Origin: an uncultured Oscillospiraceae bacterium
Lineage (GTDB): Bacteria; Bacillota; Clostridia; Oscillospirales; Oscillospiraceae
Length of the DNA: 8,309 nt
NCBI GenBank assembly: GCA_934569425.1
Contig: CAKTKM010000061.1
Location: forward strand, 1 to 8,309
Direction: 5' to 3'
Position numbers and translations under genes: made by a program. Shown here in pieces: positions 1-7,660 of this stretch. Every line of letters starts with the position of its first letter. Position 1 is the first letter of the stretch. Under the pieces are notes generated by a model. It saw only the letters and a program-made list of their open reading frames with translations. It was not told where the DNA came from and did not search any database.

Positions 1-2178
<2,178 letters not shown>

Positions 2179-2188
2179 ACCGCCCGCC

Positions 2189-3964
2189 TCAGCTTTCCGG
2201 ATGCTTCATCAGGTTTGCCGCCAGCGCCAATATGGCTTTCCGATCTTCGCCCGATGCCTGTCCGGTGCGGTCGATCTTCCGGCAAAGCTCCGGCAATGTG
2301 GTCTCTGCCATGTCCAGCAGCACACGGGCGGTCTTGGCGGTATCCGCCACGGGAACATCCGCAAAGGCGTGGTCCAGCGCCGCCGTCAGCAATATGACCT
2401 GCTGGTGCTGGCTGTAGGGATGGTACTGCTCCTGCCGCAGCAGACGCATCAGGCCCTGCCCGTAGTGCAGCTGCCGCTTGGTGGCATCATCCAGATCGCT
2501 GGAGAACTGCATGAACACCTCCATCTCGCGGTACTGGGCCAGATCAAGGCGCAGCGTACCGGAGGCCTTTTTCATCGCCTGCGTCTGTGCCGCGCCGCCC
2601 ACACGGGATACGGACAGACCCACGTTGACTGCCGGGCGCTGCCCTGCGTGGAACAGACTGCTCTCCAAAAAGATCTGTCCATCCGTGATGGATATGATGT
2701 TGGTGGGGATATAGGCGGACACATCGCCCGCCTGCGTCTCCACAATGGGCAGCGCCGTCATGCTGCCGCCGCCCAGCACGTCGGACAGGTGGGCAGACCG
2801 CTCCAGCAGCCGGGAGTGCAGATAAAACACATCTCCGGGATAGGCCTCACGACCGGGGGAACGCTCCAGCAGCAGACTCAGTGCGCGGTAGGCCACGGCG
2901 TGCTTGGACAGGTCGTCGTATACGATCAGCACATCCCTGCCACGGTGCATGAAGTATTCGCCCAGCGCGCATCCGGCATAGGGCGCGATATATTGCAGCG
3001 TGGCAGAATCGCTGGCGGTGGCGGCCATTACGATGGTATAGTCCATGGCGTCGCGGCGGCGCAGCGTTTCCACCAACTGTGCCACAGAGGACGCCTTCTG
3101 TCCGATGGCCACATAGATACAGACGATATTCTTCCCCTTCTGATTCAGGATGGTGTCCAGTGCGATGGCGGTCTTTCCCGTCTGGCGGTCACCGATGATC
3201 AGCTCACGCTGACCACGGCCAATGGGGAACATGGAGTCGATGGTCAGAATGCCCGTCTCCAGCGGCTGATCCACCGGCTGGCGGTCAATGATACCTGGGG
3301 CCGGGGCCTCCACCGGATAGTAGTCCTCCGCCGCGATCTCACCGGCATCGTCTATGGGTTCGCCCAGCGCGTTGATCACACGGCCCAGAAAGCCCTCGCC
3401 CACCGGCGTGCCCGCCACCTTTCCGGTGCGGCGCACCATACTGCCCTCCACGATCTCGCTGTCGTCTCCGAAGATCACGCAGCCGATCTCGGATTCCCGC
3501 AGATCAAGGATCATGCCCTTCAGTCCGCCGTCAAACAGCAGGATCTCGCCGTATTCCGCCCCGGCAAGCCCGCTGACTGTGGCGATCCCGTCGCCCACCG
3601 TCAGCACGGTGCCTACCTCGTCGGCACGGGGCGCGGGTGCGAAGCCCTGAATGGCCTGCCGCACCAGCGGCATCACGTCGCCGTGGCCACGGACGGCCTG
3701 GGATACCTGCTCCTTCAGCTGGCGGCTCTTGCCCGCGGCGCTCCAGTCGTAGATCTGATCCAGCTGCCAGCGGTAAACAGAGGTACCTACCTCAATGCGA
3801 AAGCCGTCATGGACGCTCGCGCCCTTCCGCCACACGACGCCGACGGTTTTCTGATACTTCTTTTCCAGAAACGCCCGCAGACGCTCCAGCTGCTCCTGAG
3901 AAGGCTCTTCGGCGCTGTAAAGATAGGCTTCGACCTCGACTTTTCTGATCTCATGCTCCGTCAT
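2189..3964 (-). CDS. atpA: F1 ATP synthase alpha subunit with fused delta C-terminal-like domain
   Basis: This is the non-catalytic, nucleotide-binding alpha subunit of F1, here 591 aa against about 500-513 in the family. Residues from about 98 onward are a complete alpha chain: a short N-terminal helix (PLVRQAIQGF), the beta-barrel entry EVGTVLTVGDGIATVSGL (116-133), the P-loop GDRQTGKT (258-265), the ALSLLLERSPGREAYPGDVF region, the arginine finger in SVSRVGG (Arg454), and a C-terminal helical domain beginning near LDDATKRQL. The first 75 or so residues are not found in ordinary alpha. They match the C-terminal domain of the delta subunit: charged helices (PSQEQLERLRAFLEKKY), a beta strand, then HDGFRIEVGTSVYRWQLDQI, equivalent to the GGLIVRIGDRIYDGSVSGKL stretch of Bacillus-type delta. 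The ATG at 3964 has AAGGAGG 8 nt upstream and sits 3 nt after the atpF stop, so the extension is translated as part of the gene. Alpha identity is certain. The delta assignment is by pattern, not alignment. Confidence 0.96.
   Translation of the reverse strand: MTEHEIRKVEVEAYLYSAEEPSQEQLERLRAFLEKKYQKTVGVVWRKGASVHDGFRIEVGTSVYRWQLDQIYDWSAAGKSRQLKEQVSQAVRGHGDVMPLVRQAIQGFAPAPRADEVGTVLTVGDGIATVSGLAGAEYGEILLFDGGLKGMILDLRESEIGCVIFGDDSEIVEGSMVRRTGKVAGTPVGEGFLGRVINALGEPIDDAGEIAAEDYYPVEAPAPGIIDRQPVDQPLETGILTIDSMFPIGRGQRELIIGDRQTGKTAIALDTILNQKGKNIVCIYVAIGQKASSVAQLVETLRRRDAMDYTIVMAATASDSATLQYIAPYAGCALGEYFMHRGRDVLIVYDDLSKHAVAYRALSLLLERSPGREAYPGDVFYLHSRLLERSAHLSDVLGGGSMTALPIVETQAGDVSAYIPTNIISITDGQIFLESSLFHAGQRPAVNVGLSVSRVGGAAQTQAMKKASGTLRLDLAQYREMEVFMQFSSDLDDATKRQLHYGQGLMRLLRQEQYHPYSQHQQVILLTAALDHAFADVPVADTAKTARVLLDMAETTLPELCRKIDRTGQASGEDRKAILALAANLMKHPES
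3674..3964 (-). other. delta-subunit C-terminal-like domain plus linker fused to alpha (residues 1-97)
   Basis: This part of the alpha gene encodes what appears to be the C-terminal domain of the stator subunit delta (OSCP), about residues 8-73, and a charged linker to about residue 97. In ordinary F1Fo enzymes delta is a separate protein of about 180 aa. Its helical N-terminal domain caps the N-termini of the three alpha chains, and its C-terminal domain holds the tail of the b dimer. Only the b-binding half is visible here. There is no room for the other half, because atpF ends 3 nt upstream. The motif that convinces me is G-F-R-I-x-V-G followed by V-Y and a final Leu-rich helix, preceded by an EQLERL amphipathic helix, in the order seen in delta. 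The functional inference is that alpha itself grips the b subunits. Confidence 0.8.
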
Positions 3965-3967
3965 GCG

Positions 3968-4450
3968 TCAGTCCTCCTTCTCCACCTTGTCCAGAAAATC
4001 GTCCAGCGGCGCTTTCCCGGAGGGCGGCAGCAGCTTATCCACCGCCTCCGCCACAAGGACGTCGATCTCCGTACCGGCCTCGACCAGCACTCTGGCCTTC
4101 TCCTGCGCGGCCTCCTTCTGTGCTCTGTCCAGAATGGCGCGGCGCTCCTCTTTGGCCTGTTGGAGCTGCTCTGCCGCCGCCTGCCGCGCGGACTCCATGG
4201 CCTGCTGCTTCAGCGCGGCGGCCTCATTCTCTACATTGGCCAGATGGTCGCGGTACTGCTTTTCCTCGCTCTGCGCGTCGGCCAGCTTCTGCTTGGCCTC
4301 CGCGTCCATGTCCTCGTAGTAGGCGGTGCGCTTGTCCATAAACGCCTTTACGGGCCGGTACAGCAGCAGGTACAGTCCGCCGAACAGGAGCAGGAAGTTG
4401 AAGAGATGCAGCAATATCTGCTGCCAGTCGATATTCAGTGGTACACCCAT
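3968..4450 (-). CDS. atpF: Fo ATP synthase b subunit
   Basis: Subunit b forms the peripheral stalk that keeps the alpha3beta3 head from spinning with the rotor. The 160-aa product starts MGVPLNIDWQQILLHLFNFLLLF. It has one N-terminal membrane helix (about residues 10-33) with the Asn-Phe pattern seen in b, followed by YRPVKAFMDKR at the membrane exit. A long Ala/Glu/Gln/Lys-rich coiled coil follows to about residue 130, and it ends in DVLVAEAVDKLL and LDDFLDKV, the part expected to meet delta. The length is normal, so the missing delta N-terminal half has not been moved here. I prefer the ATG at 4450 to the in-frame GTG at 4468, which overlaps the atpE stop, because GGGAGG sits 7 nt before the ATG. 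The GTG form would add six residues. The gene is single, with no b' partner in the window, so a homodimer is expected. Confidence 0.95.
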   Translation of the reverse strand: MGVPLNIDWQQILLHLFNFLLLFGGLYLLLYRPVKAFMDKRTAYYEDMDAEAKQKLADAQSEEKQYRDHLANVENEAAALKQQAMESARQAAAEQLQQAKEERRAILDRAQKEAAQEKARVLVEAGTEIDVLVAEAVDKLLPPSGKAPLDDFLDKVEKED

Positions 4451-4457
4451 ACCGACA

Positions 4458-4463
4458 CCTCCC
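4458..4463 (-). promoter_or_regulatory. ribosome binding site deciding the atpF start
   Basis: GGGAGG on the minus strand lies 7 nt before the ATG at 4450. It falls inside the coding frame that would result from the alternative GTG at 4468, so it argues for the shorter, 160-aa b subunit. Confidence 0.75.
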
Positions 4464-4464
4464 G

Positions 4465-4845
4465 TCACAGCACGAAGATGACCAGAATGGCAATGATCAA
4501 AGCGTAAATGACGACCGTTTCAATGAACACCAGGCCCAGCATCAGGCTGGTACGGATATTTCCGGCGGCCTCCGGCTGGCGGGAGATGCCCTCCGCCGAC
4601 TTGCCGATGGCAAGGCCCATGCCCACGGCGGCAGCCGCGGAGGCAAGGCCCACGCAGACCGCGGCGGCCACGGCCTTGCTGCCGGTGGCGCTGCCCGCCG
4701 TCTCTGTGGCGGTCTGAGCGGTTTCCGCCGCTGTATTGGCAGCGGCGTTATCGGACGTGGCGGCAAAGGCGGCCACGGTGCAGAGCGCGCAGATCAGCGC
4801 GGCCACCAGTGCCATAACGATCACTTTCTTAGAAATGGTTTTCAT
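4465..4845 (-). CDS. atpE: Fo ATP synthase c subunit with signal-like leader and Ala/Thr linker
   Basis: Subunit c forms the ion-carrying rotor ring in the membrane. The product is 126 aa, whereas bacterial F-type c subunits are usually about 70-90. The C-terminal 70 residues are a standard two-helix hairpin: helix 1 about 57-82 with small residues and GMGLAIGK, the polar loop ARQPEA-type motif as SRQPEA (88-93), and helix 2 with the ion-binding Glu109 in VFIETVVIYAL. The first 28 residues look like a signal peptide (MKTISKK, a hydrophobic core, then AFA before a possible cleavage after Ala28). Residues 29-55 are an Ala/Thr-rich low-complexity linker. The ATG at 4845 overlaps the atpB TGA as ATGA and is preceded by GGAGG 8 nt upstream, so the leader is genuinely in the reading frame. 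Whether it is cleaved cannot be told from sequence. The ion-site residues are discussed under findings. Confidence 0.96.
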   Translation of the reverse strand: MKTISKKVIVMALVAALICALCTVAAFAATSDNAAANTAAETAQTATETAGSATGSKAVAAAVCVGLASAAAAVGMGLAIGKSAEGISRQPEAAGNIRTSLMLGLVFIETVVIYALIIAILVIFVL

Positions 4846-5684
4846 GTTCTTTTCCTCCGCAGTTTTGTTTTTTCTTTCGTTTTCCGCTTGGCCGGTTCCG
4901 TGACCTCGCCATAGAACATAGCGGTCAGCATCGTCAATACATAGGTCTGGATCAGTGCGTGCAGCAGCGTAAACATCACGCCCACCGCCACCGGCAGCAC
5001 GAAGCTCAGGTGGATGTAGTAGTACACCAACTCCGTCACCAGCAGTCCACTCAGCAGCGCGCCGAACAGACGGAAGCTCATGGATACGGGCAGCGAGAAA
5101 TCCTTCAGCGTCAGCCCGATTCCCTTGACGCCGTTTCCGGCGATGCCGCCGGACATAATGACAATGTAGGACAGGCAGCCAAGGGCGATGGCACCGTTGA
5201 TATCCGACAGCGGCGCGGGCAGTGACACAGACACGCCGCCCGTCGTTACCGCCTGAATACCGAACAGCTCAAACAGCGTCCCTGTGAAGATATACACGCC
5301 TGCCGCGAACACATACGCGCCCAGGAAGGTATTTCGGTGGGGACTGCTACTCTTCGCAAGGTTATCAAAGAAGCCCACCAGCTCCTCCAGTGCCAGCTGT
5401 AATTTTCCCGGTACCATCCGGAAACGGGGAATGACCAGCAGCCGCAGAAGCAGCGCCGCCAGCAGCAATACCCCTGATACAATCAACGCCGAAATAAACG
5501 CCGGGTCTACCGCTTTCCAGCCCAGCAGGCTGATCCTGTTGGTACCGTGCAGTACCGCGTCGCGCATCGTCTCCTTGATGGACACCGACTCACCTCCGCC
5601 GCCCACCGCCAGCGCGGCGGCCAGTGTCAGCACGATCAAGCCCACCCAGATCACCAGAAACCGAGTCCGTTTCTTTTTCTCCAT
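4842..5684 (-). CDS. atpB: Fo ATP synthase a subunit
   Basis: Subunit a is the stationary membrane channel next to the c ring. It provides the two half-channels and the arginine that ions pass. The 280-aa product starts MEKKKRTRFLVIWVGL with a first membrane helix, then an extracellular loop and about four more hydrophobic segments. The essential arginine is Arg205 in SFRLFGALLSG, and Gln246 in ALIQTYVLTMLTAMFYGE is the counterpart of E. coli Gln252. The protein ends in a strongly basic tail. Earlier in-frame starts exist at 5693 (GTG) and 5690 (ATG), but AGGAAG lies 8 nt before the ATG at 5684 and is too close to, or overlaps, the others. The gene follows the DUF1275 gene by about 21 nt, and its stop overlaps the atpE start. 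The usual Asn after RLFG is Ala here. Confidence 0.95.
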   Translation of the reverse strand: MEKKKRTRFLVIWVGLIVLTLAAALAVGGGGESVSIKETMRDAVLHGTNRISLLGWKAVDPAFISALIVSGVLLLAALLLRLLVIPRFRMVPGKLQLALEELVGFFDNLAKSSSPHRNTFLGAYVFAAGVYIFTGTLFELFGIQAVTTGGVSVSLPAPLSDINGAIALGCLSYIVIMSGGIAGNGVKGIGLTLKDFSLPVSMSFRLFGALLSGLLVTELVYYYIHLSFVLPVAVGVMFTLLHALIQTYVLTMLTAMFYGEVTEPAKRKTKEKTKLRRKRT

Positions 5685-5692
5685 ACGCATCA

Positions 5693-5698
5693 CTTCCT
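5693..5698 (-). promoter_or_regulatory. ribosome binding site deciding the atpB start
   Basis: AGGAAG on the minus strand ends 8 nt before the ATG at 5684. The in-frame GTG at 5693 overlaps this element and the ATG at 5690 is only 2 nt away, so the third candidate start is favoured. Confidence 0.65.
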
Positions 5699-5705
5699 TA
5701 TCCCA

Positions 5706-6377
5706 TTACTTTTCCGGCACGAACATCATGCCGAAGCTGACCGACAGCAACACGCAGCAGACCCAGATCACCCGGTCGCCGAACGCCGTGGCCAGAACGC
5801 TGCCCAATCCCGCACCGATGCCGAACACCAGGATCACGCCGAAATAGGTCAGCGCCTTCCACAGAATTTCCTTGTCCTTTTCCCGGAAGTAGGCGCACAG
5901 CGCCTCCGTTCCGGAGCGCATATTGCCGATGCACATGGTGCTGGCATAGGCGTGGCCCCGCACCTTGTGGAAGGTCTGTACCTGCAAGGCGCAGACAAAG
6001 GACACCAGTGCGTTGGCCAGTGCATCCAGACGCTGGGGCATAAAGCCCACCGCAAGCAGCAGTAGGATCTCGCACAGCAGGATGATCTGCCGCCAGTGGA
6101 TCTTTTCATAGTGCTTCAGCCGGATATGGACGACCTCCGCCGCCGCAATACCGATCATAAAGGACAGGATGGGGATCAGATATTTCAGAGCCGTCGGCCA
6201 CTCCCGCTGGAACAGCGCCGTACTGAGCAGCACGATGTTGCCCGTCTGGGCGTTGGCAAACACGCCGCCCCGACAGCAATAGGTGTACGCGTCCTGAAAG
6301 CCGCCGGACAGAATGATAAAGATCGCCGCCCGAAAGCTGTCCGATATCTGCCCGTGAAAGCTGACGTCATGCTCCAT
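5706..6377 (-). CDS. DUF1275 (YoaK family) integral membrane protein
   Basis: The 223-aa product is predicted to be a polytopic membrane protein with about six hydrophobic segments. It carries the family's recognisable motifs: SGGFQDAYTY (24-33), GGVFANAQTGNIVLL (37-51), and the second-half motif running from NALVSFVCALQVQTF (122-136) to the Gly-Asn-Met-Arg at 151-154. Members of DUF1275 are widespread in bacteria and their biochemical role is not established, so I assign none. The ATG at 6377 begins 2 nt after the aminotransferase stop and has GGAG 6 nt upstream. A TTG at 6383 that overlaps the upstream stop is a weaker alternative adding two residues. It lies immediately before atpB, where many operons carry the small membrane protein gene atpI. 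It shows no resemblance to AtpI in length or motif, so it is a positional rather than a homologous replacement. Confidence 0.9.
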   Translation of the reverse strand: MEHDVSFHGQISDSFRAAIFIILSGGFQDAYTYCCRGGVFANAQTGNIVLLSTALFQREWPTALKYLIPILSFMIGIAAAEVVHIRLKHYEKIHWRQIILLCEILLLLAVGFMPQRLDALANALVSFVCALQVQTFHKVRGHAYASTMCIGNMRSGTEALCAYFREKDKEILWKALTYFGVILVFGIGAGLGSVLATAFGDRVIWVCCVLLSVSFGMMFVPEK

Positions 6378-6379
6378 GG

Positions 6380-7660
6380 TCAACTCCGCTCCTTTTCCAG
6401 CTTCTCAATGCTGACGAGCTTGGTACACAGTGCCAGTATCGTGACGGCGGCACGGATCTCCTCTACTGTGGCAAAGGAGGGGGCCAGCCGGATGTTCCGA
6501 TCCTCCGGATCGCGGCCATAGGGATAGGTCGCGCCTGCCGGTGTGAACTTGACGCCATTGGCGGCGCACAGCTTCACAACCTCAGCGGCGCAGCCCGGCA
6601 GCGTGTCAAAGGAGAGGAAATAGCCACCCTTTGGCGTTGTCCACCGCGCGACGCCTGTGCCGCCCAGCTCCGTGTCCAGCACCTCCAGCACCGCGTCGAA
6701 CTTGGGCTTCAGGATAGCGGCGTGCTTTTTCATGTGGGCCAGCAGCCCCGCGTCATTCTTGAAGAACCGCGCATGCCGCAGCTGGTTCAGCTTATCCGGC
6801 CCAATGGTGGAGAGCTGCAAAAACGACTTGATGTCGATGAGGTTCGCGGCGCTGGCCGCCACCGCCGCAATACCGGAGCCGGGGAACGTGACCTTGCTGG
6901 TGGAGCAGAACTCATAGACCAGATCAGGATGTCCGGTCTTTTCACACTCCGCGATGATATCCGGTATCTGGTCGCACTCCCCGTCGAAGCAGTGGACGCA
7001 GTAGGCGTTATCCCAGAAGATGCGGAAATCTGCCGCTGCGGGCCGCAGGTTGGCAAAGCGTCTGACCACATCATCACTGAACACGATCCCGGTGGGATTC
7101 TGGTATTTCGGCACACACCAGATACCCTTCACCGTCTCGTCCTGCACCAGACGCTCCACCAATGCCATATCCGGGCCGTTTTCATCCATCGGCACCGGGA
7201 TCAACTGGAAGCCGAAATGCTCCGTAATGGCAAAGTGCCGGTCATAGCCCGGCACGGGACACAGGAACTTACGTCCCGGCACCTCCTGCCACGGTGTGCC
7301 GCCGCAGATGCCCTCGGTCATGCCGTGGCTGATGATCTGATACATCAGCGTCAGGCTGCTGTTGCCGCCCACGATGGTATGGGAGGCGTGGGTCCCCATC
7401 ATGTGTGCCAGCAGCCGCTTGGCCTCCGGGATACCGTCAAGGCCGCCGTAGTTGCGGCAGTCCTGACCGCTCTCGCTGTCAAGAATGCTGCGGTGATCCA
7501 GCTCATCCAGCAGCTTCAGCGACAGCTCAAGCTGCTCCGCGGCAGGCTTGCCCCGCGACAGATCCAGCGTCAGGCCACGTTTTTCGTATTCTCTGAGCCG
7601 GCGCAGACATTGCTCCTTCTCCCGTGCCAGCGCCGCGCTATCCATTGATGTGTACTCCAT
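6380..7660 (-). CDS. aspartate aminotransferase, fold-type I, subgroup Ic (AspT-like)
   Basis: This is a PLP-dependent aminotransferase of 426 aa, expected to move the amino group between aspartate and 2-oxoglutarate, giving oxaloacetate and glutamate in the cytoplasm. It resembles the MocR-like subgroup Ic enzymes typified by Corynebacterium AspT, with LDLSRGKPAAEQL (32-44), NYGGLDGIPEAKRLL (70-84) and GGNSSLTLMYQ (98-108). Catalytic landmarks are NPTG (188-191), Asp217 and Tyr220 in WDNAY, the Schiff-base Lys256 in STSKVTFPGSG, and Arg391 in NIRLAPS, which should bind the substrate carboxylate. The ATG at 7660 has GAGGT 6-7 nt upstream. A longer in-frame reading to 7774 would run through the promoter and is not credible. 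It is the first gene after the promoter at 7725-7753 and is 2 nt from the DUF1275 gene. Substrate choice is inferred from family; another amino acid is possible. Confidence 0.9.
   Translation of the reverse strand: MEYTSMDSAALAREKEQCLRRLREYEKRGLTLDLSRGKPAAEQLELSLKLLDELDHRSILDSESGQDCRNYGGLDGIPEAKRLLAHMMGTHASHTIVGGNSSLTLMYQIISHGMTEGICGGTPWQEVPGRKFLCPVPGYDRHFAITEHFGFQLIPVPMDENGPDMALVERLVQDETVKGIWCVPKYQNPTGIVFSDDVVRRFANLRPAAADFRIFWDNAYCVHCFDGECDQIPDIIAECEKTGHPDLVYEFCSTSKVTFPGSGIAAVAASAANLIDIKSFLQLSTIGPDKLNQLRHARFFKNDAGLLAHMKKHAAILKPKFDAVLEVLDTELGGTGVARWTTPKGGYFLSFDTLPGCAAEVVKLCAANGVKFTPAGATYPYGRDPEDRNIRLAPSFATVEEIRAAVTILALCTKLVSIEKLEKERS

Follow-up and report, generated by a model that had tools for sequence, protein, structure and literature searches.

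The DNA analyzed here, a stretch of 8,309 nucleotides (nt) from an uncultured Oscillospiraceae bacterium (contig CAKTKM010000061.1; "the window"), carries on its minus strand an operon for an F-type ATP synthase, with the genes arranged a, c, b, alpha, gamma, beta. Judged from its sequence and a predicted structure, the alpha subunit of this operon is a fusion in which the C-terminal domain of delta (deltaC), the half of that subunit that binds b, stands directly before a complete alpha, with no delta N-terminal domain. Because each enzyme has three alphas, it would have three docking domains. By sequence and by analogy with an engineered enzyme, we hold with moderate confidence that the window enzyme carries more than one peripheral stalk, likely with an a subunit for each. 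This kind of protein is already in print, since PMC12229609 names natural delta-alpha fusions; the window holds a further natural case. What is new here is that fused alphas occur in 26 of the 66 alpha-bearing genomes of the order to which the nearest relative belongs, and that they come in several architectures.

The N-terminal extension of alpha

A first-pass annotation of this DNA had proposed that alpha carries about 97 additional N-terminal residues resembling the C-terminal domain of delta, that the operon has no delta gene, that the delta N-terminal domain is gone and that alpha would be linked directly to b. Our data bear out these points, with the direct alpha-to-b link as a likely design. 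The stop codon of atpF and the ATG of the fused atpA are 3 nt apart, which leaves no room for atpH at that place, and no atpH was found in the operon as seen from atpB as far as inside atpD. An AGGAGG ribosome-binding site lies 8 nt upstream of the ATG; because of this site and the short distance to the atpF stop, the long form of alpha is the expected product. Canonical alpha starts at residue 96–97 of this product. Residues 8–85 match PF00213 at profile positions 100–170 of 172 (expectation value (E) 7.9e-6, 26.5 bits, gathering score 22.3). By fold and profile the C-terminal domain of delta/OSCP is thus present, and with a match that begins at profile position 100 the N-terminal helical domain is missing, as is a separate chain. 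We set the end of the domain at residue 91 by analogy with the nearest relative, L001, where the match spans residues 10–91. The NCBIfam delta models match the extension weakly (best 23.6 bits, cut-off 115). A structure prediction, which the annotation had suggested as a check, was made with AlphaFold2 (AF2) for residues 1–112; delta/OSCP C-terminal domains of ATP synthases were the first matches to this model in Foldseek/VIA. The helices at the C-terminal end of the model are less certain.

Coding and conservation are both evident in the extension. It shares 59% identity with the nearest relative over 95 residues, compared with 79% in the core, and the changes fall mostly at third codon positions. 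PF00213 and alpha domains occurred together in 120 of 120 proteins among the best 120 of 222 relatives (E ≤ 0.001). The fusion is neither chance nor an assembly fault.

The core behind the extension is of the F-type, as residues 96–578 score 726.9 bits with TIGR00962 (cut-off 484.45); the N-ATPase alpha model, TIGR03324, gives 619.8 bits, below its cut-off of 750.5. N-ATPases resemble the window in having an F-type operon without a separate delta, but they differ in gene order and alpha family. Their order as given in PMC11738941 is beta-epsilon-X-X-a-c-b-alpha-gamma, with delta absent or on b, whereas the window reads a-c-b-alpha-gamma-beta. The b-delta fusion of mycobacteria also has a delta C-terminal domain in a fusion and was among the top structural matches. 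Unlike the window protein, it carries delta on b, as one chain per PDB entry, and has the delta N-terminal domain, which is covered by the alignment of the M. abscessus and M. tuberculosis-type chains. The window b is a separate frame of 166 amino acids (aa) with no PF00213 match and so is not of this type.

The N-terminal helix of alpha faces the delta N-terminal domain. A figure legend in PMC12229609 supports this placement. At their N-terminus the canonical alphas of the order share the motif RPxEISxIIKxQIKNY, with a mean pairwise identity of 0.45. This motif is gone from fused, triple-fusion and mini-delta-clade alphas (described below), where identity in the stretch is 0.31, 0.25 (from 10 of 21 pairs) and 0.32, respectively; identity in the remaining core is 0.75 for canonical, 0.72 for fused, 0.74 for triple-fusion and 0.68 for mini-delta alphas. 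In this comparison some N-terminal rows are missing, the cores having been cut by a local hidden Markov model (HMM) match. The window helix, at residues 96–111, does not have the canonical motif of the order.

Fused alphas among relatives and their origins

L001 comes from the metagenome-assembled genome (MAG) of an uncultured Clostridia bacterium (G001), matches at 62% over the query and has the same gene order, with seven genes including epsilon. F-type alpha (E ≤ 1e-90) was found in 66 of 147 genomes of this order. The 26 genomes with a fused alpha, counted from frame lengths read together with inspected loci, comprise 17 with deltaC-alpha, one with deltaC-deltaC-alpha, seven with b-deltaC-alpha and one with a nearly complete delta-alpha. 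Two of the 17 (G145 and G042) have a C-terminal domain under the Pfam cut-off (16 bits). A complete atpH elsewhere in the genome, with its product built into the enzyme, had been named in the annotation as a finding that would speak against its reading. Outside the fused frame, no second alpha or PF00213 place was found in 24 of the 26 fused genomes, which are MAGs of unstated completeness. G001 does have a free delta, of 180 aa, in a second, complete canonical operon.

In a sample of the class, 34 of 391 genomes had a stop-free frame of at least 580 aa with a deltaC match. All 20 that were inspected (G001, G019 and 18 others) are alpha fusions, with a nearly complete delta in four of the 18. 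Two alphas were present in 13 of the 34, a count that may be low as at most three candidates were scored per genome. The class count leaves out G226 (509 aa, contig edge) and G395, G294, G504 and G204, in which the match runs through stops. A scan of 398 genomes of the phylum, run with a strict cut-off, picked out 14, six of them with a stop-free frame of at least 580 aa, five of these already in the class sample. Weak PF00213 places in G120 and G147 were dropped because they adjoin a chain scoring 257 and 240 bits, respectively, with the beta HMM; we take these pairs to be flagellar FliH/FliI. Another weak place, in G012, was dropped because no ATP synthase gene was found around it.

The b-deltaC-alpha form, or triple fusion, would give each alpha a stalk helix anchored in the membrane, as read from its domains. 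With three alphas per enzyme, this would make three anchored b helices unless the chain is cut. The domain scan covered three of the seven proteins and the alignment six; ATP-synt_B gave 33.9 bits in L040, 41.1 in L036 and 24.2 (below cut-off) in L052, and OSCP gave 43.4, 49.1 and 35.2 bits. A separate b of 138–141 aa stands next to the fusion in all seven operons. A database search for this form gave 833 matching proteins among 7993 scored, and among the 120 matches listed PF00213 and alpha domains were present in 120, with a precomputed ATP-synt_B in 28. The predicted b-deltaC model is poor across residues 51–80. We saw nothing on b-deltaC-alpha in the literature, where no search was aimed at that name.

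Four more genomes have deltaC as a stand-alone gene of 72–74 aa before an ordinary alpha (mini-delta). In three otherwise ordinary operons, delta has two or three C-terminal domains in a row (Table 1). We infer that the triple-fusion and multi-C-domain forms fit best if more than one b-dimer (b2) is bound. In G203 (L093:1-6000, L094:1-3732), two delta-like frames (287 and 236 aa) end in the C-terminal domain, and the gamma match, in a protein of 467 aa, is interrupted by long inserts.

In an unrooted tree of 67 alpha cores, which has long branches, the b-deltaC-alpha group came out as a clade of its own (100/100). A second clade (100/99) was the main fused group, with 18 rows: 15 deltaC-alpha, the deltaC-deltaC-alpha, a nearly complete delta fusion and L077, which is without deltaC. 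Three fused rows fell among the four mini-delta rows (100/100). A single clade of fused alphas, L077 included, was rejected (approximately unbiased (AU) test, p 2e-5), as it was with b-deltaC-alpha added (AU p 3e-13). Fused, triple-fusion and mini-delta alphas as one group against the rest were not rejected (AU p 0.20), so the delta N-terminal domain may have been lost once and early, before separate fusions.

The number of peripheral stalks

By the usual view, an F-type enzyme has a single stalk and a single a subunit, and c-ring size alone determines its H+/ATP. In the window enzyme every one of the three alphas would have a place where a b2 can dock. With the asymmetric delta N-terminal domain gone from the top of alpha3-beta3, there would be no limit to one stalk, and two or three b2 stalks could form, each keeping an a subunit in place at the c-ring. 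H+ per ATP would be raised two- to threefold, and ATP could be made, or the gradient kept up, at low proton motive force. This would suit fermenting anaerobes. For relatives that have an ordinary operon as well as a fused one, it could amount to two gears. The first-pass annotation had not foreseen three docking domains per enzyme, nor that the design had already been engineered and noticed in nature (PMC12229609); its reading as a whole stands in part.

Ueno et al. (2025; PMC12229609) describe a Bacillus PS3 enzyme from which the delta N-terminal domain was removed and in which the C-terminal domain was joined to alpha (PDB 9jc1). As reported there, this enzyme contains 2.2 times the a and 1.8 times the b of wild type, shows up to three stalks by cryo-electron microscopy and has an H+/ATP of 5.8 versus 3.0; the rule proposed is that H+ per turn equals the c count times the a count. 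The same source lists Acidaminococcus fermentans and UniProt G4Q3K6 and A0A1I2C5T3 as natural delta-alpha fusions without the delta N-terminal domain and, as a proposal, judges a multi-stalk structure highly likely for A. fermentans. In a phmmer search of the PDB, residues 14–548 of the window alpha aligned in one stretch with 9jc1_I 7–537, and residues 1–200 compared with 9jc1 place the deltaC-alpha joint at the same position. Both proteins have deltaC on the alpha N-terminus and no delta N-terminal domain and are co-linear over nearly the whole chain; 9jc1 has no free delta, and the window operon is without one. They differ in that 9jc1 is an artificial construct whose linker is short and whose epsilon is trimmed, and in that its multi-stalk count was shown, whereas that of the window is predicted. 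The proteins of A. fermentans and of the two UniProt entries, which belong to other bacteria than the window, are likewise delta-alpha gene fusions without the delta N-terminal domain.

More than one stalk also appears to occur in Chloroflexus aurantiacus. Its PDB chains comprise 18 alpha and 12 delta (157 aa) in six entries and 72 b and 36 a in 18 entries, so that each entry has three alphas but two deltas, with b present four times and a twice (PDB 9itj and kin). These chain counts imply a natural two-stalk F-ATPase, on which literature searches found no paper. As an F-type enzyme with delta, b pair and a each present more than once per entry, it would resemble the window enzyme; it differs in a delta that is separate and not joined to alpha.

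Several points weigh against additional stalks in the window enzyme. Three docking domains need not be filled, and one b2 could sit on one of them and leave two idle. Triple-stalk particles were rare in the cryo-electron microscopy of the engineered enzyme (PMC12229609), and the literature yielded neither a subunit count nor a structure or assay for any natural fused enzyme. Five alphas (L066, L083, L085, L086 and L099) carry a nearly full-length delta and keep much of its N-terminal domain. Three such domains could not all take the single site at the top. A fusion is therefore in itself no proof that the symmetry has been freed, and these proteins may be intermediates or single-stalk enzymes. 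The paralogue L077 (6543-8111, plus strand), in a second operon of G044, retains just the last part of deltaC, and no delta was seen in its operon. An enzyme in which deltaC only replaces the lost delta-alpha contact, with one b2, two idle deltaC and one a, is compatible with every sequence result, and we regard it as a real though less probable alternative. It would agree with the single a and single b gene per operon, as in ordinary enzymes and with no sign of altered dosage, with the nearly full-length fusions, which could seat only one N-terminal domain, and with the mini-delta lineage, which keeps deltaC as a free gene. It accords less well with the b helix on every alpha of the b-deltaC-alpha relatives, with the two stalks counted in the Chloroflexus entries and with the roughly two sites filled on average in the engineered equivalent (PMC12229609).

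The remaining explanations concern the extension itself. It is improbable that a complete delta is borrowed from a second canonical operon and that the fused deltaC is auxiliary; G001 and the class genomes with two alphas would allow this, but in 24 of the 26 fused MAGs of the order, of unstated completeness, no such second set was found, and fused alphas have lost the N-terminal motif. An unrelated alpha-beta domain that merely resembles deltaC is very improbable. Here the score near the Pfam cut-off counts in its favor, as do a mean predicted local distance difference test (pLDDT) score of 72 for the model and a single-sequence PDB search with the extension alone that gave chance matches only (mostly CD1 chains, best E 0.33). 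In addition, an HMM built solely on 35 canonical deltas from the order of the nearest relative did not match the window protein (sequence E ≤ 10, domain E ≤ 1). It did not match three other fusions either and matched 12 of 16 distinct deltaC-alpha fusions, so the delta signal is real but thin in the window protein. On the other side, fused relatives score up to 66 bits with PF00213 at the same position, the fusion is connected to delta through the nearly full delta-alpha proteins and the free mini-deltas, and ATP synthase chains came ahead of all other structural matches. The kinship of the extension to delta shows by profile and fold rather than by single-sequence search. We think it just as far-fetched that the chain is cut after translation and deltaC works as a free mini-delta; free mini-delta genes do exist in another lineage, but the fusion persists across many lineages.

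Beyond the window, we put forward tentatively, at slightly less than even weight, that natural multi-stalk F-type enzymes are widespread among Clostridia and have more than one origin, that the window enzyme is one of them, that tandem deltaC and the b-deltaC-alpha triple fusion are other routes to the same end, the latter by building three membrane-anchored stalks firmly into every enzyme, and that several genomes pair a one-stalk enzyme with a multi-stalk one, as low and high gears suited to different proton gradients.

Neighboring genes and wider meaning

Features of the window operon and of related loci are given in Table 1. For atpF, the ATG at 4450 is the more likely start by comparison with L001, in which b begins MGIPLN. 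The c subunit of the window has approximately 55 additional N-terminal residues, signal-like and then Ala/Thr-rich. Its counterparts in operons of the main fused clade are 118–157 aa long (75 in L066), and those of the triple-fusion and mini-delta groups 70–77 aa. Directly upstream of atpB is a membrane-protein-like gene (5706-6383), with a similar one at 7430-8137 in L001, presumably of the YoaK/DUF1275 family.

Table 1. Coordinates of ATP synthase features in the window and in related loci
Feature	Location	Strand	Basis or remark
Window: delta C-terminal-like domain, alpha residues ~1–91	3692..3964	-	PF00213; AF2 and Foldseek/VIA; kept in fused relatives
Window: canonical F1 alpha core, intact P-loop GDRQTGKT	2189..3679	-	TIGR00962; P-loop read from translation
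Window: alpha N-terminal helix, residues 96–111, retained	3632..3679	-	Co-linear with 9jc1; motif comparison
Window: atpB, a subunit	4842..5693	-	PF00119, 64.9 bits
Window: atpE, c subunit, 126 aa, signal-like N-terminal extension	4465..4845	-	PF00137, 54.4 bits, residues 60–121
Window: atpF, b subunit	3968..4468	-	PF00430, 63.4 bits
Window: atpA, fused alpha, 591 codons	2189..3964	-	
Window: atpG, gamma subunit	1258..2178	-	PF00231, 283.5 bits
Window: atpD, beta subunit, truncated by window end	1..1261	-	HMM search run in this analysis
Window: 3-nt atpF-atpA gap (3965-3967) and AGGAGG (3973-3978) within atpF end	3965..3978	-	
L081: delta with three C-terminal domains in a row	3737-4783	+	236.5 bits; otherwise ordinary operon
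L082: delta with two C-terminal domains in a row	3771-4556	+	189.2 bits; otherwise ordinary operon
L065: delta with two C-terminal domains in a row	6899-7654	-	184.6 bits; otherwise ordinary operon
L054: gamma-beta single frame	2988-5348	-	PF00231 and PF00006
L057: gamma-beta single frame	8744-11104	+	PF00231 and PF00006
L087: gamma-beta single frame	6615-8999	+	PF00231 and PF00006
L095: gamma-beta single frame	6097-8457	+	PF00231 and PF00006

Four related operons that also have deltaC-alpha carry gamma and beta as one frame of 786–794 aa. Gamma has no stop of its own in this frame, and a rotor subunit would thus be tied to a stator subunit. In a database search 39 of 39 matches were gamma-beta proteins, with length limits that leave out plain gamma. 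The linker has a Met in 37 of 38 parsable proteins; the 38th, P0246, matches L054, where the codon is GTG. Because a purine-rich stretch precedes the linker codon in all four loci, free beta may be made from an internal start. One literature search aimed at gamma-beta turned up nothing on a natural fusion; one paper among its results, PMC4052266, uses the phrase beta-gamma fusion.

If the multi-stalk reading is true, H+/ATP would be set by the number of a subunits, which would call for a new reckoning of energy yield in anaerobes that live close to the thermodynamic limit. Many natural test cases are available among the genomes of this survey, including those with b-deltaC-alpha.
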